40,171 nucleotides of DNA, taken from contig JAJYSV010000037.1 of the NCBI GenBank assembly GCA_021793405.1, positions 1 to 40,171 of the forward strand, read 5' to 3'. Source of the stretch: Acidobacteriota bacterium (GTDB lineage: Bacteria; Acidobacteriota; Terriglobia; Terriglobales; Acidobacteriaceae). Shown piece by piece: positions 21,187 through 33,282 of the stretch (its first letter is position 1; every line of letters starts with the position of its first letter). A model generated the notes under the pieces. It saw only the letters and a list, made by a program, of their open reading frames with translations, had not been told where the DNA came from and searched no databases. The position numbers and the translations under genes are program-made.

Positions 21187-23103
<1,917 letters not shown>

Positions 23104-23181
23104 GTATTGCCCTCCCCCGAATACCCGCCGGGCTGCATGATAGATTTTTCGCTATCGCTGCGAATCGGTGAAATGCGCTCC

Positions 23182-23211
23182 GCACAGGCGTTCTTTTAGG
23201 AACGCCTGTGC
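23182..23211. promoter_or_regulatory. Strong hairpin between mreB and mreC
   Basis: A perfect 12-bp stem, GCACAGGCGTTC with GAACGCCTGTGC, closes a six-base loop TTTTAG. It lies 79 bp after the mreB stop and 72 bp before the chosen mreC start. No T tract follows, so a simple intrinsic terminator is unlikely on the plus strand. It may act as a partial terminator, an RNA-processing site or a stabiliser of mreB mRNA. Confidence 0.6.
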
Positions 23212-23282
23212 ATAATGAATGTTCGCTCGTCAGCACGTCGAGTGAACACGGTCTGTTATCCTCACAGCCTGTTGCAGGCCTC

Positions 23283-24491
23283 ATGGAATCCTTTCTCAGT
23301 CGAAACCGAAATCCACTGATGCTGCTGGCCGTCGTACTGGCGCAGTTACTGGGTCTCGCAGTGCAGGTTCGGCGTCCAACAGCAGACAACAGCAGTCATC
23401 AAACGCGGCTGATCCGCTACTGGGTGGTCAGCCTGATTTCCCCCTTTGAGCGGGTATTTTTGTTTGTTGGGCATGGAGTCAGCCACACGTGGGACGATTA
23501 CGTGGATCTACGCCACGTTCGAGCGCAGAACCAGCAACTGCAGGCGGAACTGAACAGGATGCGGCTGGAGCAATCTGCGCTCGCCGAAGACGCCCGTCAA
23601 GACATTCGACTGCAGAAACTGCTTAGCTTTCAGCAGAATTACATCTCGAAAACGGTGGCCGGCCACGTGATCGGAACGAGCGGGACCGACCTGTCTCGTG
23701 TGGTCTACATCGATAAAGGCTTCGACAACGGTATCCGCACCGACATGCCTGTGATCACGCCGGATGGGGTGGTGGGAAAAATTCGCGCGGTATTTCCGCA
23801 CACGGCGCAGGTGCTCGAAATTAATGACCAGACCAGCGGGCTGGGCGTGATTCTGACTCGCACCCGCCTGCGCGGTATTCTGCGCGGTACCACGGATGGG
23901 CGGACGGAGATCACCGACATCCTTCCGGATGAACGTATTCAACCAGGCGAACAGGTCATTACCAGCGGCGGCGATCAAGTCTATCCCAGTGGCCTTCCGG
24001 TGGGCGTGGTGGAACGCATCGTGCCGGATCCGGAGCAAAATTCCGATGTTGCTCTGCTGATCAAGCCGGCGGTGAACCTGTCGCGCCTGGATGAAGTGCT
24101 GGTGATCACGCAAACGCAGGACACGGTTCCGTCCACGATGCAGCAGGACGTGTCCACCAGCGAACAGAGGGCAGCGGACGTTCTGGCGCAGCGTCTACCG
24201 GGCGCGCTTCCGCCGCCAGATGTGGGCCCTGATGGAAAGCCGCTGAACGCAAACTCTCCGCCACCGCCAGTGCGGCCGCCTGCACCGCTGCACCCGGACC
24301 GGTTTACGCCGGGCGCCACGCCGCCGGCAGATGATCTGAAGCCGGGCGCCGCGTACCAGAAGCAGATGTTCGCTCCGCAATCGCCCGCGAACGGGACGAC
24401 ACAGCCTGGCCGCGCAGCCCAGCCTTCCACCGCAGTCTCCAAGCCGACCGCAACCCCGACTTCGAAGACTCAACAGGAGCCGCAGAATTAG
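23283..24491 (+). CDS. mreC: Rod-shape-determining protein MreC
   Basis: From the ATG at 23283 the protein has 402 residues. One N-terminal membrane helix (about 10-28) leads to a periplasmic coiled coil (about 78-112: VRAQNQQLQAELNRMRLEQSAL type) and the two-barrel MreC domain (about 115-275, with VGKIRAVFPHTAQVLEINDQTSGLGV and GEQVITSGGDQVYPSGLPVGVV). MreC dimerises in the periplasm and contacts PBP2. Residues from about 290 to the end form a long Pro/Ala/Thr-rich disordered tail, not a feature of typical MreC. An open frame extends to GTG 23208 inside the intergenic hairpin, but the ATG gives the normal N-terminus. mreD starts two bases after the stop. Confidence 0.95.
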   Translation: MESFLSRNRNPLMLLAVVLAQLLGLAVQVRRPTADNSSHQTRLIRYWVVSLISPFERVFLFVGHGVSHTWDDYVDLRHVRAQNQQLQAELNRMRLEQSALAEDARQDIRLQKLLSFQQNYISKTVAGHVIGTSGTDLSRVVYIDKGFDNGIRTDMPVITPDGVVGKIRAVFPHTAQVLEINDQTSGLGVILTRTRLRGILRGTTDGRTEITDILPDERIQPGEQVITSGGDQVYPSGLPVGVVERIVPDPEQNSDVALLIKPAVNLSRLDEVLVITQTQDTVPSTMQQDVSTSEQRAADVLAQRLPGALPPPDVGPDGKPLNANSPPPPVRPPAPLHPDRFTPGATPPADDLKPGAAYQKQMFAPQSPANGTTQPGRAAQPSTAVSKPTATPTSKTQQEPQN

Positions 24492-24493
24492 CA

Positions 24494-25015
24494 ATGTCAC
24501 TCTTGTATCCAAACTCGCGACGGGAGATGGAGGAACACCGCTTCCATCCGCTCGTCTTGATTCTGGTGCCGCTGCTGGCGATCTTCTTTCAGGCGTATCT
24601 GCCGCTGCGTTTTCCATCCGTCGGATTCCTCAACGTGCCGGTGCTCGTCGTCATTTATTTTTCCGTCTCGCGACGAAGTCCCATTGGCGGAACGCTGCTG
24701 GGTATGATCATCGGAATCATCCAGGATGCGTTGACCCACCTGCCGCTCGGCGTCAATGGCATCATCGACTGCATTCTCGGCTATCTGGCGGCATCGATCG
24801 GACTGCGGATCGACGTGGACAATCCGGGCACGCGTCTGATCATGAACTTTACTTTCATCCTGCTGGCCAGCATTTTGCACGTACTGATCCTGCGCCGCCT
24901 GCTGGGCATCCACGAACAGTGGTACGGACTGCATGAGGTGGTTCGCGCGGTGGTTAATGGGTTAATCGGTGTGGTTCTGTTCGCGCTTCTCGACCGTTTG
25001 CGGCAACGTCAGTAA
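24494..25015 (+). CDS. mreD: Rod-shape-determining membrane protein MreD
   Basis: The 173-residue protein is almost entirely hydrophobic helices, with the MreD pattern of about five or six membrane spans (LVLILVPLLAIFFQAYLPL, LNVPVLVVIYFSVSRR, GTLLGMIIGIIQDALTHLPLG, GLIGVVLFALLDRL). The conserved G.iqD segment between the second and third spans is present. MreD is an inner-membrane partner of MreC. The start is two bases after the mreC stop; an ATG at 24527 (MEEHRF) is an alternative. Identity rests on both sequence and position between mreC and PBP2. Confidence 0.93.
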   Translation: MSLLYPNSRREMEEHRFHPLVLILVPLLAIFFQAYLPLRFPSVGFLNVPVLVVIYFSVSRRSPIGGTLLGMIIGIIQDALTHLPLGVNGIIDCILGYLAASIGLRIDVDNPGTRLIMNFTFILLASILHVLILRRLLGIHEQWYGLHEVVRAVVNGLIGVVLFALLDRLRQRQ

Positions 25016-25054
25016 GCCCCCAATCCGGAGTATTCTGAAGGCATATCCCCCGCC

Positions 25055-27280
25055 ATGGCTGGCACAGTCAACAAAGACGACAGAATCCCATCGATCAAGC
25101 TGACGGCGATCCAGTACGTCATTGCGTTGATTCTCGTCATCCTGGTTTCCGGACTGTGGAGACTGCAGGTGCTGGGCGCGCAGAATTATCGCGCTCTTGC
25201 GCAGGCGAACCGGATTCGGAAAGTACCGATCCTGGCACCGCGCGGAAAAATATTTGATCGTTACGGACGCCTGATTGTCGACAACTACCCTTCGGTCACT
25301 TGTTTTCTGGTTCCCGAGCAGGCCCACGATCTTGACAGCGATATTCCGCTGATCGCCGAGGGACTGCACATGCAGCCAGACCAACTGCGGGCAGTGCTGC
25401 TGCGCTATCGGCATCAGCCGAGGTATCAGCCCATCCCGCTGCAGCAGGACATCACGCCGGACGAGCAGGCCTTTATCGCGGCCCACGCCAATGAGTTACC
25501 GGAGCTGGAAACGATCGAAGAGCAGCGGCGACTCTACCCCAGCAACGGATTTGCCGCACACCTGATCGGCTACGTCGGGGAAGTTTCCGAAGACATGCTG
25601 GACGACCCGCGCTATGCCTTCTACCAGCCGGGCGACGTAGTGGGACGGTCGGGCGTCGAGGAATCCTACGATCCCATCCTGCGTGGTCAGGACGGTTCCC
25701 GCGATGTGATTGTCGATAGCCACGGACGCGAACTGGGCGCGCTCGGCATCGAACCAGCGGTGCCCGGCAAATCCATTCGATTGACGATCGATCTGGATAT
25801 CCAGAAGGCTGCCGAGGATGCCATGGGACAGCGGGAAGGAGCTCTGGTGGCCATCGATCCGCGCACCGGCGAAGTACTCGCCATGGTGAGCCGGCCGACG
25901 TTTGATCCAAACGATTTTGCCATCCGCATCCATCGCAAGCAATGGGACGCGCTGCTCACGAATCCCGAGAATCCCTTGATGAACAAGGCGATCCAGGCGC
26001 AGCTTGCTCCCGGCTCGACTTTCAAGATCATCGAAGCCATTGCCGGCTTGCAGGAAGGAATTGCGCAGACGCTGAAAGTGGACTGCCACGGCGGAGCCGT
26101 CTTCTATGGGCGCTATTTCAAGTGCTGGATATCGGCCCGGCATCAGTCGCACGGAATCACGGACATCAGCAAAGGAATTTATCAGTCCTGCGACGTGTTC
26201 TTTTACACGCTGGCGGAAAAGCTCGGCATCGACAAGATCGCGTACTGGGGCCACAGGTTCGGACTGGGAGAAAAGACCGGTATCGACCTGCCGAATGAAG
26301 CATCCGGCACCATGCCGTCGCCGGAGTGGAAGATGCGGAACTACCATCAAAAATGGTTTGCGGGAGAAACCATCTCGGTGGGAATCGGGCAAGGCGCGAT
26401 TGCGGTTACGCCGATCCAGTTGATACGCGCCATCGCGGGCATCGGGTCCGGCGGAATACTCAAACGCCCGCATGTCGTTTTTCCTAGCGAGGTACCGCCG
26501 GACCTGACTGGGTATTACCAGAGCCAGTTTCCGGGTTCGGGCGATCAAGTGATTGCCATCGATCCTGCGAACTGGCAGATCGTGACAGACGCGATGGCCC
26601 AGGTAACCACATTCGCGGGCACCGCCGGTTTCGCGCATTTGGATGGCATCGACTTCGCCGGCAAAACCGGCAGCGCCCAGATTGTCAGCAATGCATATAA
26701 AGCATCCGTGGGCGGCGGCGCGAAATTGAACGATACGGCCTGGTTTGTCGGCATGACACCGAGAAGAAACCCAGAAATTGCCGTGGTTCTGATGTGGCAG
26801 AACGGTTCCGAAGGATATCTCAGCGCGCGCCTGGCCGCCCGCGTGATCGCGGCGTATGTCGACAAGCAACGGCGCGAAGCCGATAACCTCCCGCAGGTTG
26901 TGAGCGCGGTCAAACCCGCCGAAGCCAATCCTCCGACTGTGGTTCCGGCGACTCAGCAGAACAAGGCGGCTCCCACCGCTGGCGCGAAGCAAAAAGTGAC
27001 TGGCCATCTGCAACCGAACGTAACTGGGCGTCAGCCATCGATTGCAATGGCTGCTCTTTGGACCAGTCCGGCGAATGGCACCGGGGGCACATCTGGAACG
27101 CAAATTCCCAAACGCGTCGCGTCCCTGTTTCCGATGCCCGCTGGAACGACGTTACACGCCGGAACCTTTCTTCTTCCACCCGATCCTGCCAAGTCGACCC
27201 CGCGCCCCTTCCACACAAAGCCACCGGCAGCGGCCGGCTCGCAGGATCGCAGCCCATCGCGGCAGAAAAGCGGAGCGTAA
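25055..27280 (+). CDS. mrdA: Penicillin-binding protein 2, elongation transpeptidase
   Basis: The 741-residue protein has one N-terminal membrane helix (about 18-36), a pedestal domain (about 55-230, APRGKIFDRYGRLI), and a transpeptidase domain. Active-site motifs are STFK with Ser321 and Lys324, SCD at 378-380 (SxN equivalent), and KTG at 537-539. Cysteines C344 and C357, in VDCHGG and FKCW, match the PBP2 pattern. It crosslinks lateral-wall peptidoglycan together with RodA. E. coli PBP2 is 633 residues; here residues ~605-741 form an extra Pro/Thr/Ala-rich tail with no recognised domain. The ATG at 25055 is 39 bp after mreD. rodA starts three bases after the stop. Confidence 0.96.
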   Translation: MAGTVNKDDRIPSIKLTAIQYVIALILVILVSGLWRLQVLGAQNYRALAQANRIRKVPILAPRGKIFDRYGRLIVDNYPSVTCFLVPEQAHDLDSDIPLIAEGLHMQPDQLRAVLLRYRHQPRYQPIPLQQDITPDEQAFIAAHANELPELETIEEQRRLYPSNGFAAHLIGYVGEVSEDMLDDPRYAFYQPGDVVGRSGVEESYDPILRGQDGSRDVIVDSHGRELGALGIEPAVPGKSIRLTIDLDIQKAAEDAMGQREGALVAIDPRTGEVLAMVSRPTFDPNDFAIRIHRKQWDALLTNPENPLMNKAIQAQLAPGSTFKIIEAIAGLQEGIAQTLKVDCHGGAVFYGRYFKCWISARHQSHGITDISKGIYQSCDVFFYTLAEKLGIDKIAYWGHRFGLGEKTGIDLPNEASGTMPSPEWKMRNYHQKWFAGETISVGIGQGAIAVTPIQLIRAIAGIGSGGILKRPHVVFPSEVPPDLTGYYQSQFPGSGDQVIAIDPANWQIVTDAMAQVTTFAGTAGFAHLDGIDFAGKTGSAQIVSNAYKASVGGGAKLNDTAWFVGMTPRRNPEIAVVLMWQNGSEGYLSARLAARVIAAYVDKQRREADNLPQVVSAVKPAEANPPTVVPATQQNKAAPTAGAKQKVTGHLQPNVTGRQPSIAMAALWTSPANGTGGTSGTQIPKRVASLFPMPAGTTLHAGTFLLPPDPAKSTPRPFHTKPPAAAGSQDRSPSRQKSGA

Positions 27281-27283
27281 CCA

Positions 27284-28378
27284 TTGCGCCGATTTCTTTC
27301 CTATCGCGATTTCGACTGGACGCTGCTGGCCTTTGTGCTGGCTTTGTCGGTGATCAGCGTGCTGGAAATCTACAGCGCAACGTTACACACGAAGTTCGTT
27401 CACTTCGATGAGAAGCAGATTCTGTGGCTCGCAGGCGGGTTCGTCAGCATGTTTGTTCTGTCGCTGATCGACTACCACATCCTGCTGGATGTTGCTGTCT
27501 GGGCGTACGGAATCTGCCTGGTGTCGCTGGCAGCGGTCCTGGTTGTGGGCACGAAGGTGCTGGGAGCGCGGCGCTGGATCCATCTGCCGGGCGGCATCCA
27601 CTTCCAACCCTCGGAATGGGTCAAGCTGGTTCTGATTGTGGTGCTGGCGCGATACTTTACAAACCTGGGCGGCCGCGAGTTGACCTGGAAAGACATCTTC
27701 AAGGCCATGGCCATTGTCGGGGTGCCGATGCTGCTGGTGCTGAAGCAACCGGACCTCGGGACCGCGCTGACATATGCGCCGGTCCTGCTGGTGGGTCTGT
27801 TTCTCGGCGGCATCCGGTTTCGGCAGGCCGCGATCCTGTTTCTGGCTGCCTCGCTCGCCATTGTTCCGGCGTGGTACAAGGTGCTGAAGCCGTATCAGAA
27901 GCAGCGACTCACAAGCTTTTTGCAACCCGATAACGATCCACGCGGCAGCGGGTATCAGATTCGACAATCCCTGATCGCGGTTGGTTCCGGCGGCATCTGG
28001 GGGCAGGGAGCCGAGCGTGGAAGCCAGACGCAAGGCGACTTTTTGCCCATTCCCTATACGGATTTTATTTTCGCGGCATTTTGCGAGGAGCACGGATTGG
28101 CAGGAGCCATTTTCGTCCTGCTGTTATACTTTTTATTGTTGATGCGTTTAGTTCAAAACGCTCAAACCGCCGCTGACCTGCCCGGCACTTTGATTATTAT
28201 GGGGGTCGTGGCCGTCCTGATTTTTCAGATCGCGGTCAATGTGGGCATGGTTATCGGCTTTATGCCGGTCACCGGTATTCCTTTGCCCCTAATGAGTTAC
28301 GGCGGCTCATCGGTGCTGTTTGCGTTCCTTGCCTTCGGCATCGTCATGAACATCCGCATGAGCCGCTTCGTCAATTAG
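27284..28378 (+). CDS. mrdB: RodA, SEDS peptidoglycan glycosyltransferase
   Basis: The 364-residue protein is a SEDS polymerase with about ten membrane helices. Family landmarks are GARRWI, FQPSEWVKL, LKQPDLGTAL, LQPDNDPRGSGYQIRQSLIAVGSGG, FIFAAFCEEHG and the C-terminal PLPLMSYGGSS. RodA polymerises glycan strands in partnership with PBP2. The start is TTG at 27284, with GGAG about eight bases upstream and only three bases after the PBP2 stop, pointing to translational coupling. Length and motifs are normal. Confidence 0.96.
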   Translation: MRRFLSYRDFDWTLLAFVLALSVISVLEIYSATLHTKFVHFDEKQILWLAGGFVSMFVLSLIDYHILLDVAVWAYGICLVSLAAVLVVGTKVLGARRWIHLPGGIHFQPSEWVKLVLIVVLARYFTNLGGRELTWKDIFKAMAIVGVPMLLVLKQPDLGTALTYAPVLLVGLFLGGIRFRQAAILFLAASLAIVPAWYKVLKPYQKQRLTSFLQPDNDPRGSGYQIRQSLIAVGSGGIWGQGAERGSQTQGDFLPIPYTDFIFAAFCEEHGLAGAIFVLLLYFLLLMRLVQNAQTAADLPGTLIIMGVVAVLIFQIAVNVGMVIGFMPVTGIPLPLMSYGGSSVLFAFLAFGIVMNIRMSRFVN

Positions 28379-28843
28379 CAGTAGCTCTGGCGCAGAAGCA
28401 GGCCGCGCCGGATTGCAAAATTCGCGCATCCGCCGTCCCCATCAGAACGAGTGATTGGCATGGATGCGACAAGAAGTTTTCTCGGTAAGGCAGATTCCAA
28501 CCGAGACCAGGCAGGTTCGATCGAATGCACGCATTGAGAAACGCAGCCGGACTGGAAACGGCCCCACCCCTTTTGGGGGAAGTAGTGGCCACAAAGTCCT
28601 TGCGTGCCGTTCTTTCACGTCGCAGTCAAGATTCTTCGCTTCCATTGCCAACCCGCTCTCGCGGGAGATTCGTATTTCCCTGGCCTAAAGCAAGTTTCCC
28701 GTCCGCAGCGTCATCAGAACGCACTCTCGATCCAACCGCCCTAGTCACGGTCGCCGCGCACGGAGTTCGCTAGCGCGCAGAAATCTGCCTCGCCAATACC
28801 CCGAGTCCGCCGCCTTGATGGCTTCGGACTGGAATGAGGCAGC
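28379..28843. other. 465-bp leader region between rodA and RNase E/G
   Basis: I see no credible gene here. The region holds a G+C-rich hairpin around 28560-28590 (GGCC...CCCC TTTT GGGG...GGCC), a small CCCGC/GCGGG hairpin near 28651, and an 11-base piece of the dispersed repeat at 28630-28640. Enterobacterial rne mRNA carries a long 5' leader that the enzyme cuts to control its own level, so this spacer may be an analogous leader; that is inference only. Confidence 0.45.
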
Positions 28844-31800
28844 ATGACAAAAGAAATTTATATCTCCAGCACTCCCCACGAAACGAGGCTGGCGGTCGTC
28901 GAAGACGACCAATTGGCGGAAATCTACTACGAACGCGAGAACGAATACACGCTCGCGGGATCCATTTACAAAGGCAAAGTGACCCGAGTGCTTCCTGGGA
29001 TGCAGTCGGCCTTCGTCGACATTGGCCTGGAACGCGACGCATTCCTGTACGTCACCGACTTCGCTGAAGAACAGGAAGACGGCGAAGAGTATGTGCCGCT
29101 GGCACCGGGACAATCTCGCGGCCACGGGCGTGCAGCCGGCAGCCACTCCAATGACGCGCGCGGGGCAGCAGAGGGCGACTCTCACGCCAGCGGGGAAGAG
29201 CCCGCAGCGCGTTCTTTCATTGATAGGAAGCCGGCAGGACAACCCGTTCGCGAAGCTTCAACCGCACCGGGCAGTTCCTCCGGCGACGAGGAAGGGGCGG
29301 GTGGACGGCGCTGGCGCGGACGGCGCGGACGGCGACGCGGCCGAGGCGGATCGTCGGCGCAGGAACGGCCATCCTCGAATGGTCAGGGTGGATTTGCCGA
29401 AACGCGGCGGACAGAGATCACCGAGTCAACGCAATTTGAAACGGAAGCGATTCCAGCCGAGGCGGATTTCGAACATGCGCACCAAGATTTCGCGGTTCAG
29501 GCTGTTGCGTCGGAACGTTTCCCGGCTCCGCAGTCGGAGCATCCCCGGTCGGAACAGCCTCGATCTGAGCAGCTGCCGATGGTGCTTCCCGGAGAATCGC
29601 TGTCCAAATATCGTCGTGGCGAGTCGGCACCGGCGGCCCAAGCGACCGGAGCAGTTCCCGCCGAGAGAGAGGCATCTGCTGCGACCCCTAAGGCGACATT
29701 CCAGCCATCAACGATGGTGGTGGGTCCCCTGGCGTGGGATGGCAGCGAAGTGTTGCCGGGCGAATCCATCTCGCGCCACAAGCGTACGCGAGGCGCATCC
29801 TCCGCAGTTGAAAGCTTTTCGTCTCCGGCAGCCGAGGTGGGTCCTGTTGTCGAGGAGACCGCGGCAGCACCGGCGGAGAATGGCGTGCCGGCTGACGTTG
29901 CAACCTCCCTGCCCGTAGCCGAGTTCGAAGAGCCCTCATTGGTGCAGCACGACATGACTCTGGAAGAGCCCTCGCTGGTGCAACACGTGACCACCGTGGA
30001 AGAGCCTTCGCTCGTGCGCCACGACAGATCCATAGAAGAAGCGCAGGAATTCGAGCCGGCAGAAGCTTCGGTGTCGTATCGCTTCGATCCAGCCAGTCCG
30101 AGCGCGTACCGGCAGAGCGGTGTTGTCGAACCACCCGCGGCCGAGCCGCCCATGGAAGCAGAGTCGGCACCCATGCAGGACTCCACGGAATACGAAGCAG
30201 TCGCCGAACAGACGGAAGAAGCGGACTCGGAGCTGGAGCCGTTTTTTGGTGAAGCGGCTTCTATCGTTGAACCGGCGCCTCCGCAGGAAGCAGGATTCCA
30301 GGCGCAGGAGGCCACTTCACCAGCGACAGAAGAATTGACACCAGTCCATCCAGCAGAGGTCACATCGTCCGCGACGGAAGAGACTTCGACCGAGCAGGAA
30401 GAGAGCGCGCAGGACGACGCAGACTCCGATCATGACGAGCACGTGTTTGACCCGGGTCATGGAAATCTCGAAGAAGAAACGATCGACGAGGAAGAGCCGG
30501 AAAGATACGCAGCGCAGAGCCTGCAGGACGAGGCGGAGTATGACGATCTGATTGAAGAGACGCTGGACATGCAGATGGATAGCGGCCTGCTCAGCGAGCT
30601 GGTGCGGGATCAGCATATCGAACAGCGGACACGTTTCGTTGAGGAGAATGGGAACGGGGAGTCGGCGGCGCTGGGAACCGAAGAGGACACGTTTGAAGAA
30701 GAGAGCTTTGGGGCCGAGCTGGGAGAGATCGAACTGGAGGATGCTACGTCTCCGGCGGAAGAAGACTCCGAGAGCGATGAGCCTGCCAATGCGGATGCCG
30801 CACGCAACCGGGCGAGCGGAGGCCGCAATGGACGAAGGGAAAACCGAGGACAGCGCCACGGTGGCGATCGCCGCATGCGCCGCGGTACAGCGCAAACGAC
30901 CAATCTGCCCGCTATTACAGAGCTTCTGAAGCCGAACCAGGAAATCCTGGTACAGATTGCCAAGGAACCGATTGCCCGTAAGGGCGCGCGTATCACCAGT
31001 CATATCGCACTGCCGGGACGCTTCCTGGTCTTTATGCCCACAGTGAATCATGTCGGCGTCTCGCGCAAGATCGCTTCCGATGAGGAGCGCCAGCGGCTGA
31101 AACATATTTTGTTGAGCGAAAAAGGCGCTGCGTCCGGAGGATTCATTGTCCGGACAGCCGCAGCCTCCGCCAGTGAGGAAGACCTCCGCGCGGACATTCG
31201 CTTCCTGCTGACATTGTGGGCTGAGATTCGCCAGCGCACGGAGAACGCGAAACCGCCGGCTCTGATCTACCACGACCTAAGCCTGGTGGAACGCGTTCTG
31301 CGCGATCAGGTGACGGACAACTTTTCCTCTATCTGGGTCGACACGGAAGCGGATTATGAACGCGTGCTGCGCTTCCTGAATCGCTTCGAGCCTGCCCTGG
31401 TGCGACGCGTCAAGCTGTACACCAAGGAAACGCCGCTGTTTGAGCAATTCGGTATCCAGGAAGAAATCAACAATGCCTTGCGCTCGAAGGTGTGGCTGAA
31501 GTCCGGCGGTTCGATCGTCATCAACCAGACCGAGGCGCTGGTGGCCATCGACATCAACACCGGAAAATACGTTGGCAAAACGGCGCGGCTGGAGGACACC
31601 ATCCTCAAGACAAACCTGGACGCGATTCCGGAGATTGTCCGTCAGATTCGGCTGCGCGATCTGGGCGGCATCATCGTGATCGATTTTATCGACATGGATG
31701 AGCGCAAGAATCGCAACAAGGTGATGCTGGCGCTGGAGGACGCGTTAAAGTCGGATCGCGCTCCTTCCAAGGTCCTGCAGTTCAATGATTTTGGGTTGGT

Positions 31801-32107
31801 GGCGATTACGCGCAAACGGGTCAAGCAATCGCTGGAGCGCACGCTTTCAGTTCCCTGCTCGGTTTGCATGGGCACAGGCATGGTGAAGGGTCCGCTGACG
31901 GTGTGCAATGAGATCTACGTCGAGCTACGCAAGATGTACCGTCAGATTGACCGCGGCGACGTAATGCTCCGCGTCAATCCCGAAGTCGTCAAGCAACTGA
32001 AAGCATCGAATGGGCGCTGGCTGAGCGAGATGGAGGAAATGTCGGGAAAAACTGTCATCGTGAAAAGCGATGCCAGCCTGCATCCGGAGCAGTTCGACAT
32101 ACAGTAG
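28844..32107 (+). CDS. rng: RNase E/G family endoribonuclease with split S1 domain
   Basis: The 1087-residue protein starts as normal RNase E/G (TKEIYISSTPHETRLAVVED) and enters the S1 domain (about 36-73: IYKGKVTRVLPGMQSAFVDIG...FLYVTDF). About 615 foreign residues follow (about 74-690). The second half of S1 resumes at LKPNQEILVQIAKEPI (695-710), then come the RNase H-like, 5'-sensor and DNase I-like parts. The metal-binding aspartates are D903 (AIDINTGK) and D947 (VIDFIDM), and the Zn-link is CSVC (C1005, C1008). The insert is Arg-rich at both ends (RRWRGRRGRRRGRGG at 155-169; about 660-681) and acidic between about 450 and 650, so probably disordered. It lacks the C-terminal scaffold of E. 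coli RNase E. GAGG lies six bases before the ATG. The RNase G versus E name is a choice. Confidence 0.95.
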   Translation: MTKEIYISSTPHETRLAVVEDDQLAEIYYERENEYTLAGSIYKGKVTRVLPGMQSAFVDIGLERDAFLYVTDFAEEQEDGEEYVPLAPGQSRGHGRAAGSHSNDARGAAEGDSHASGEEPAARSFIDRKPAGQPVREASTAPGSSSGDEEGAGGRRWRGRRGRRRGRGGSSAQERPSSNGQGGFAETRRTEITESTQFETEAIPAEADFEHAHQDFAVQAVASERFPAPQSEHPRSEQPRSEQLPMVLPGESLSKYRRGESAPAAQATGAVPAEREASAATPKATFQPSTMVVGPLAWDGSEVLPGESISRHKRTRGASSAVESFSSPAAEVGPVVEETAAAPAENGVPADVATSLPVAEFEEPSLVQHDMTLEEPSLVQHVTTVEEPSLVRHDRSIEEAQEFEPAEASVSYRFDPASPSAYRQSGVVEPPAAEPPMEAESAPMQDSTEYEAVAEQTEEADSELEPFFGEAASIVEPAPPQEAGFQAQEATSPATEELTPVHPAEVTSSATEETSTEQEESAQDDADSDHDEHVFDPGHGNLEEETIDEEEPERYAAQSLQDEAEYDDLIEETLDMQMDSGLLSELVRDQHIEQRTRFVEENGNGESAALGTEEDTFEEESFGAELGEIELEDATSPAEEDSESDEPANADAARNRASGGRNGRRENRGQRHGGDRRMRRGTAQTTNLPAITELLKPNQEILVQIAKEPIARKGARITSHIALPGRFLVFMPTVNHVGVSRKIASDEERQRLKHILLSEKGAASGGFIVRTAAASASEEDLRADIRFLLTLWAEIRQRTENAKPPALIYHDLSLVERVLRDQVTDNFSSIWVDTEADYERVLRFLNRFEPALVRRVKLYTKETPLFEQFGIQEEINNALRSKVWLKSGGSIVINQTEALVAIDINTGKYVGKTARLEDTILKTNLDAIPEIVRQIRLRDLGGIIVIDFIDMDERKNRNKVMLALEDALKSDRAPSKVLQFNDFGLVAITRKRVKQSLERTLSVPCSVCMGTGMVKGPLTVCNEIYVELRKMYRQIDRGDVMLRVNPEVVKQLKASNGRWLSEMEEMSGKTVIVKSDASLHPEQFDIQ
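29927..30034 (+). repeat. Three 12-codon repeats inside the RNase E/G insert
   Basis: Residues 362-397 are three tandem 12-residue units beginning EEPSLVQH, EEPSLVQH and EEPSLVRH. The bases differ at several synonymous sites between units, so the repeats are not a very recent duplication and the peptide seems to have been kept. Confidence 0.85.
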
Positions 32108-32454: not shown

Positions 32455-33282
32455 ATGAAAACCATGATAACGGCGAAAAAAGCTATCTACAAGACCTTAA
32501 AATATGCGGGTTGCGTGGCGCTTGCATGCGGGTTGCCCCTCACGGTTGGCCTGCAGGCGCAGAGTTATTCCAGTTCCAAGGTAAGCTACAACTTTCAAAA
32601 CAATTACCAATACAACGGCCCCTATAGCCAGAATCAATACCAGCAGCCAGTGACCCCCCCGCGCTATAAGGGAGAAGGTTGGGGCAAACATTTTGTGTTC
32701 GAGGGCGGCGGCGGCGTGACCGCACCCGTGACCGGGACGCAAAAATTTGCGAACACGGGATTCAATGTTCTGCTCGGCGGCGGGTTTAGGTTCAATGATC
32801 GTCTCAGTCTTTTGGCGGAATGGAATTTCAATCGCATGGGGGTCCCCACGGACCTCGCCTTAGCCGCAGCCCAGGTTCCGGGAGGGAACGAGCATATTTG
32901 GACAGCCATGTTCAATCCAAAATTCGACTATATTCGCGGTAACAGGCTGGATGGATACGTAATCGGCGGTGGCGGGTTTTCACGCCAGCTCACTACGTTC
33001 ACAGCGCCGGTCCTCGTGCCGTGCGGGTATGGCTATGGGTATGGCTATGGGTATGGCTATGGGTATGGCGGGGCGTGCACAGGAAGCGTCAATGTGTCCC
33101 ATGAATCCAGCAATCAGGGGATGTACGACTTCGGAACCGGCGTGGAATTCCGATTCTCACCCTATAGTCGCTTTAAGCTTTTTGTAGAAGGTCGATACGA
33201 GAAGTTTTACACACCCAAGAGCAATCTCCCGCCCGGATACAACGCAACGCTTGTCCCGGTAATGATCGGCGTCCGCTGGTAA
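32455..33282 (+). CDS. Outer-membrane beta-barrel protein with Gly-Tyr repeat loop
   Basis: The 275-residue protein has a basic N-terminus and signal peptide (about 1-36, ending LQAQS). The mature part shows OmpA-like eight-strand beta-barrel character: HFVFEGGGGVTAPV, TGFNVLLGGGFRFNDRLSLLAEWNF, DYIRGNRLDGYVIGGGGFSRQL, FGTGVEFRFSPYSRFKLFVEGRYEKFY, ending in Trp as barrel proteins often do. A low-complexity GYGYGYG run sits at about residues 191-204, in a probable surface loop flanked by two cysteines (PCGYG...GACTG) that could close it by a disulfide. GGAGG is only three bases before the ATG at 32455, so the second ATG at 32464 is possible. It is monocistronic and ends at a strong terminator. 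Function unknown. Confidence 0.8.
   Translation: MKTMITAKKAIYKTLKYAGCVALACGLPLTVGLQAQSYSSSKVSYNFQNNYQYNGPYSQNQYQQPVTPPRYKGEGWGKHFVFEGGGGVTAPVTGTQKFANTGFNVLLGGGFRFNDRLSLLAEWNFNRMGVPTDLALAAAQVPGGNEHIWTAMFNPKFDYIRGNRLDGYVIGGGGFSRQLTTFTAPVLVPCGYGYGYGYGYGYGYGGACTGSVNVSHESSNQGMYDFGTGVEFRFSPYSRFKLFVEGRYEKFYTPKSNLPPGYNATLVPVMIGVRW
33025..33072 (+). repeat. 12-bp tandem repeat (GGGTATGGCTAT) in coding sequence
   Basis: Three exact copies of GGGTATGGCTAT and a partial fourth run without interruption. The unit is a multiple of three, so gain or loss of units changes the Gly-Tyr run length but keeps the frame. Confidence 0.9.

Follow-up and report, generated by a model that had tools for sequence, protein, structure and literature searches.

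In alphaproteobacteria and plants, the S1 domain of RNase E carries insertions of ~50-150 aa, which are alike only in their site, their charge and their predicted disorder; the available part of PMC4245959 calls their role not understood. The same source reports that RhlB binds an S1/5'-sensor fragment of the Caulobacter enzyme, and that the activity of Arabidopsis RNase E is lower once its S1 insertion is deleted, an observation that we count in favour of the scaffold reading developed below. Caulobacter RNase E has a separate C-terminal scaffold, and an Arg/Trp peptide at its C-terminus binds PNPase (PMC3376730, in excerpt). In Caulobacter and Sinorhizobium, alternating Arg-rich and acidic blocks in the C-terminal part of RNase E drive condensation into BR-bodies, according to the accessible portions of PMC10412687 and PMC12691583. 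The C-terminal microdomains (SLiMs) of gammaproteobacterial RNase E were acquired once, with few losses, in a region that also has tandem repeats (PMC4435900, in excerpt). For Fibrobacteres/Acidobacteria, table 2 of a 2011 survey gives an RNase E/G of 511 aa with no predicted degradosome potential (PMC3071783, as far as its available part goes). A literature search conducted largely without subscription papers and preprints returned no paper joining acidobacteria with RNase E and an S1 insertion or disorder. Papers found for acidobacteria and degradosome named Acidobacteria once each, and no match listed for LPGES, the motif described below, concerned RNases by its title.

The window analysed here is a stretch of 40,171 nt from an Acidobacteriaceae genome (Terriglobia, Terriglobales; assembly GCA_021793405.1, contig JAJYSV010000037.1). 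Its positions 28844-32107 (+ strand) form a single open frame for an RNase E/G protein of 1087 aa (PF10150, E 1.4e-101), the only match to this domain in the genome. A TIGR00757 score of 474.1 bits (cutoff 325.95) places the protein in the RNase E/G family. The best-scoring NCBIfam model is ribonuclease G (474.5 bits, under the equivalog cutoff of 594 for PRK11712), and the E. coli-type RNase E model reaches 252.1 bits. Upstream lie five genes, which we take from their translations to be mreB, mreC, mreD, mrdA and rodA (21904-28378, +). E. coli rng (cafA) sits in the mre cluster as well. Upstream DNA of 2.5 kb or more was available for 69 relatives. In 63 of them (46/51 Terriglobales-like, 15/15 Bryobacterales-like and 2/3 others; the groups are defined below), the end of rodA lies no more than 1 kb upstream of the RNase gene, and in 66 no more than 1.7 kb, the three additional distances being 1.07-1.63 kb; in L126, L172 and L173, no rodA was seen upstream. 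By score and locus, the gene is classified as RNase G-type, sharing with E. coli RNase G the mre-adjacent position and the best NCBIfam score. To our knowledge, E. coli RNase G has neither such an insert as is described here nor a scaffold.

In phmmer, residues 5-76 and 688-1016 match positions 11-83 and 94-422 of the E. coli RNase E chain 2bx2. The S1 domain is thus broken after residue ~76 and restarts at ~688, a gap filled by about ten residues in E. coli RNase E; the Pfam S1 match itself is weak (residues 39-76, E 0.16, below cutoff). The break is placed within S1 because the limits of this domain in E. coli RNase E are 36-118 (PMC4245959, available part). The first part of S1 (residues ~36-76, 28949-29071, +) is delimited by profile and phmmer alignment. 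Its F57 and F67, which we assume to be RNA-binding residues, are invariant in 70 aligned rows. The rest of S1, the 5' sensor and the catalytic core with its RNase H-like and DNase I-like domains follow at 30905-32104 (+), as judged from phmmer and conserved columns. R770, T771, D903, N905 and D947 are invariant in the same 70 rows, while C1005 and C1008 are conserved in at least 90% of them; the roles of all seven, which include the catalytic Asp/Asn and the Cys pair, are presumed to be those known from E. coli RNase E. The intervening insert comprises ~610 aa (residues ~77-687, ~29072-30904, +), which agrees with the first-pass annotation of an S1 domain split by ~615 disordered residues at 29063-30913. 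That annotation also mentioned S1 insertions in plant RNE and some bacteria.

The insert shares with the S1 insertions of Caulobacter crescentus and Arabidopsis its site within S1, its charge and its predicted disorder, and differs from them in length. Those insertions are diverse, span ~50-150 aa and come with no reported motif in the available text, whereas here the insert measures 327-878 aa in 90 motif-bearing relatives and carries a motif found across the class. It is acidic overall, with 50 Arg and Lys against 131 Asp and Glu in residues 77-684 (608 residues counted as insert). The middle (residues 327-626, 29822-30721, +), which the first-pass annotation had described as acidic, is net negative in all six 50-residue blocks; net charge per residue is -0.22 to -0.40 in five of these and -0.10 in the other. 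It includes a conserved segment with two helices predicted at low confidence (residues 535-600, 30446-30643, +). The annotation had also placed Arg-rich stretches at both ends. This holds on the 3' side, where Arg box 2 (residues ~654-680, 30803-30883, +), recognised by charge and conserved columns, adjoins the second part of S1. The 5' end fits approximately: it opens with 50 slightly acidic residues, and the first Arg cluster appears ~80 residues in. This Arg box 1 (RRWRGRRGRRRGRG, residues 155-168, 29306-29347, +) scores z 6.8 against Terriglobales-like and 3.3 against Bryobacterales-like inserts when compared with shuffled inserts, and holds six Arg/Gly columns conserved in at least 90% of 70 rows. 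It also contains Trp, like the PNPase-binding peptide of Caulobacter, a resemblance only. Charge is arranged in alternating blocks (z 8.8; none of 200 shuffles as high), as in the RNase E of BR-bodies, and block scores exceed z 3 in 74/75 Terriglobales-like and 15/15 Bryobacterales-like inserts.

Searched against Pfam and PHROG, the insert gives no match at E <= 1, and an intein, a mobile domain or another known domain was therefore rejected. Most of the insert is weakly constrained: its identity to the two nearest relatives is 59-60%, against 96-97% for the core, and dN/dS is ~0.11-0.27 (0.11-0.19 between the window and these two), against ~0.02 in the core, ratios that are rough because synonymous sites are near saturation. 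A tandem repeat with a 36-nt unit and 2.8 copies (EEPSLVQHD.., 29927-30026, +) was not seen in the two aligned relatives L097 and L098.

Relatives were drawn from the window's family, with an RNase E/G domain in 189/200 genomes (listed frames mostly 850-1380 aa, shorter where cut by contig ends), and from the phylum, with the domain in 131/149 genomes (listed frames 490-1306 aa). For a large class, the proteins seen here contradict the 511-aa listing and its lack of degradosome potential (PMC3071783, table 2, as available). Loci chosen by hand or by tool gave 138 frames, of which 130 with both halves were kept (L037 and L134 are identical in sequence). Eight partial or broken frames of 284-891 aa, all lacking an S1 match, were dropped; one of these has three motif copies and seven have none, since most of the seven hold little or no insert. 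Grouping was by catalytic identity to the window: at least 72% defines 75 Terriglobales-like rows, which bear Terriglobales names where named, and 60.5-68% defines 15 Bryobacterales-like rows with mostly Bryobacterales names, leaving 40 others. One motif-less enzyme of 61.6% identity (L061) was moved by hand to the others, so that the Bryobacterales-like band would otherwise count 15/16; the tree described below is unaffected by this placement because it was built on catalytic domains alone. Insert lengths are 372-878 aa in Terriglobales-like, 327-515 aa in Bryobacterales-like and 3-543 aa in other enzymes.

The first-pass annotation had further noted that the usual C-terminal scaffold is missing, and the comparison bears this out. 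From the restart of S1 to its end, the window enzyme has 403 residues, the median of the 75 Terriglobales-like relatives (306-405 aa; 403-405 aa in the 15 Bryobacterales-like ones). It thus has no C-terminal extension and lacks the long noncatalytic region that serves RNase E as degradosome scaffold, unlike the Caulobacter enzyme with its separate one. An insert of at least 100 aa is present in 113 enzymes (75+15+23), none of which has a C-terminal part above 480 aa; of 17 with a shorter insert, seven exceed that length. These seven (L076, L079-L081, L083, L084 and L086) are deep paralogues with 34-40% catalytic identity, inserts of 3-7 aa and a C-terminal part of 583-664 aa, which amounts to an extension of ~180-260 aa; five printed tails are acidic with Arg runs. 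In this sample, long insert and C-terminal tail are mutually exclusive. In the phylum sample, each of the 13 f21 and seven f44 genomes carries two family domains, and each of the 17 genomes of the window's own family one; in the larger family sample, five of 200 genomes, with two matches, are exceptions. This pattern, seen in few lineages and uncorrected for kinship, fits a swap of the scaffold location between paralogues.

The insert is not random filler, and the strongest evidence for its proposed role is a motif that the first-pass annotation did not mention. In a window-by-window comparison with the inserts of relatives, set against shuffled inserts, a single peak dominates (PGESLSKY; z 8.2 against Bryobacterales-like and 8.3 against Terriglobales-like inserts, position means 0.3 and 0.8). 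It belongs to copy 1 of the motif (LPGESLSKY, residues 248-256, 29585-29611, +), and the next peak is copy 2 (LPGESISRH, residues 304-312, 29753-29779, +; z 6.5 and 6.9). LPGE[ST] occurs in 75/75 Terriglobales-like and 15/15 Bryobacterales-like inserts, in 0/40 others and in 33/9000 shuffled inserts. Gathering by this string, which fixes the first five places by definition, gave 145 copies, in which L/I, S/A, K/R and Y/H dominate places 6-9 (Arg at the ninth in 15), so that the consensus reads LPGE[ST][LI][SA][KR][YH]. Each of the 90 inserts has at least one copy fitting LPGE[ST][LIVFM]x[KR][YHF], with one to three copies per protein in Terriglobales-like and one in Bryobacterales-like rows. 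We know of no gammaproteobacterial RNase E binding site that the motif resembles.

At the DNA level, a strict pattern matched 16/21 own-family genomes and 0/177 other genomes of the phylum sample. A looser one matched 17/17 own-family and 0/132 other phylum genomes, as well as 159/200 class genomes (three with two matches, 41 with none; reversed control 0). The motif lay inside the RNase E/G frame in all 50 loci read around matches (30 picked by tool, 20 by hand), and 28 further class matches, judged by eye, lie 1-2.5 kb before the catalytic domain on the same strand. Codons vary freely at every position, with 89 distinct 27-mers among 91; constraint on DNA or RNA is therefore rejected in favour of selection at the protein level. 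A search of the same genome for other proteins with the motif, which might have pointed to a bridging partner, gave two matches of the looser pattern (LPGET and LPGEW when translated in its frame); these look like chance, since the reversed control gives three. Two class genomes (G472 and G497; L251, L252) carry the motif in tandem with a 10-residue period (LPGESLAKYVLPGESLAKY), and one own-family genome (G116; L234, contig 71) has a second copy of the RNase E/G gene, which likewise encodes LPGESLSKY.

In a catalytic-domain tree of 131 rows, made by a quick method and containing some long branches, one branch (SH-aLRT 99) separates the 91 LPGE[ST] rows, window included, from the 40 without the motif. 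The motif requires one change on this tree, and so does an insert of at least 100 aa. Seven rows from other acidobacterial lineages (L052-L057, L073) carry an insert motif of their own, F[EQ]R[IVL]x[DE][DEH], once or twice; at least two copies were found in 0/4600 shuffles. Lineage-specific docking motifs may prove to be general.

AlphaFold, given a 70-row alignment, models the window protein with a mean pLDDT of 52.7, leaves S1 itself unfolded and assigns less than 50 to nearly all of the insert. The insert looks disordered, for which the low pLDDT is weak support because the whole model is poor. A short-insert relative (L168, 45 rows) gives a mean pLDDT of 58.9, again with S1 unfolded; a Foldseek search with this model put RNase E chains on top and revealed nothing new. 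Docking of the motif in cis cannot be read from either poor model, and neither bears on it because S1 is unfolded.

Taken together, these observations make it probable, if only slightly, that the insert is a degradosome-type scaffold, carried by an RNase G-type gene inside its S1 domain, and that LPGES docks a partner. The scaffold would be housed within S1 in place of the C-terminus. The motif, in its one to three copies, would dock a partner protein or the enzyme's own surface, while the Arg boxes would hold RNA near S1 and the acidic block would balance them, and might promote clustering through charge, as happens in the BR-bodies of alphaproteobacteria. First candidates for the partner are PNPase and a DEAD-box helicase. 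Both are encoded in the genome, where profiles for PNPase, DEAD-box helicases and RNase J score above cutoff and RNase Y below. The persistence of nine residues amid changing surroundings suggests a docking platform, but the motif might act in localisation, proteolysis or modification rather than in assembling a degradosome. Like the gammaproteobacterial scaffold, as partly available (PMC4435900), the insert is long and apparently disordered, and has Arg-rich and Ala/Glu/Pro-rich parts, short motifs and tandem repeats; unlike it, it lies inside S1, in a gene whose locus and best score point to the RNase G type. Its alternating charge blocks resemble those of BR-body RNase E (PMC10412687, PMC12691583, in excerpt), a likeness drawn from sequence alone, and those blocks are C-terminal. 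A further-reaching version, which is somewhat doubtful, is an 'inside-out' degradosome in Terriglobia: the RNase G-type enzyme of a cell-shape operon would have grown an equivalent charged segment with motifs within S1 and so replaced the C-tailed RNase E paralogue as scaffold, and LPGE[ST][LI][SA][KR][YH] would recruit a partner specific to the class directly where RNA enters. The first-pass proposal of a scaffold or a condensate-forming segment at that site is supported in part and indirectly, through the class-wide motif, the retained Arg boxes, the charge blocks and, in the sample, the exclusion of a C-terminal tail.

Other readings account for some of these features. The motif and the charged blocks might fold back on the catalytic domain as a cis-acting gate, the acidic part competing with RNA at the S1/5' sensor until substrate or a partner displaces it. 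In Caulobacter, a helix of the S1 insert places acidic side chains in the RNA site (PMC4245959, available part). Seven core columns (H12, E34, Y35, L37, H810, W831 and K1053) separate the 91 motif rows (at least 93%) from the 23 inserted motif-less rows (at most 15%), the most striking being W831, which is Arg in 20/23 of the latter. With domain limits that we assume, four of the seven lie inside the RNase H-like domain and two near it, a weak hint that they could mark a cis surface. The motif is also a small island just above pLDDT 50 in both models (residues 247-257, and 192-205 in L168), with a four-residue helix, although it is not the sole island. However, the clustering of 4/7 columns is weak, the models are poor and a chain of 600 aa is far longer than a gate requires. 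Such a gate seems unlikely. Somewhat less credible again is a condensate segment without specific docking, in which the alternating blocks would drive BR-body-like phase separation and the motif would be a minor sticker. The non-random charge blocks in 89/90 motif-clade inserts and the condensation driven by C-terminal blocks in Caulobacter and Sinorhizobium speak for it, but a sticker needs neither a motif core that all 90 inserts keep while the sequence around it aligns poorly, nor a motif confined to one gene in all loci read.

A mostly neutral expansion, that is, a tolerated, drifting loop whose motif has an unrelated minor role, for instance as a protease or modification site, is the most improbable of these alternatives. 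The first-pass annotation had named a length and content random even among sister species as what would count against its proposal. Length (327-878 aa) and most of the content (60% identity to the closest relative, against 97% for the catalytic part) indeed vary to that extent, the tandem repeat is absent from the nearest relatives, and in some other acidobacterial enzymes the site holds no more than 3-35 aa. The motifs do not vary in this way: motif and charge order are kept, and all 90 inserts of the motif clade reach at least 327 aa, which argues against drift. Should the segment prove to be a scaffold, evolution would be able to place this part of RNase E freely, even in the interior of an RNA-binding fold, and peptide pull-down with the nine-residue motif would offer a direct route to the partner. 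The finding bears on the role of S1 insertions in general, which PMC4245959, in its available part, calls not understood.

The PNPase of the window's genome (L177:1183-3573, -) has a tail of ~95 aa, as judged by eye, that is acidic and then Arg/Gly-rich (RRRRRPGGGG..), and might pair with the RNase insert through charge. A leader of 465 nt (28379-28843) separates rodA from the RNase gene and has a mean column identity of 89% with two relatives, even though synonymous sites are near saturation. It contains a conserved RNA-like element (28544-28604, +), recognised by alignment and recurrence, in which AACGGCCCC and GGYCACAAA flank a variable hairpin. Its core, AACG[GA]CC[CA] - variable hairpin - GG[CT]CAC, recurs within 900 nt upstream in 45/54 Terriglobales-like loci and in 0/15 Bryobacterales-like and 0/3 other loci, against three matches in 873 kb of other same-strand sequence. 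The element has no Rfam match. Because its RNAfold energies are unexceptional (z -1.93 to 0.54 in six sequences), the proposed structure rests on recurrence and few covarying pairs, 4/8 predicted pairs being changed on both sides in 40 aligned rows. An autoregulatory role of the leader is possible. Downstream of the RNase gene, an open frame at 32455-33282 in the ORF list contains a (GY)n run and perhaps encodes an outer-membrane beta-barrel protein.
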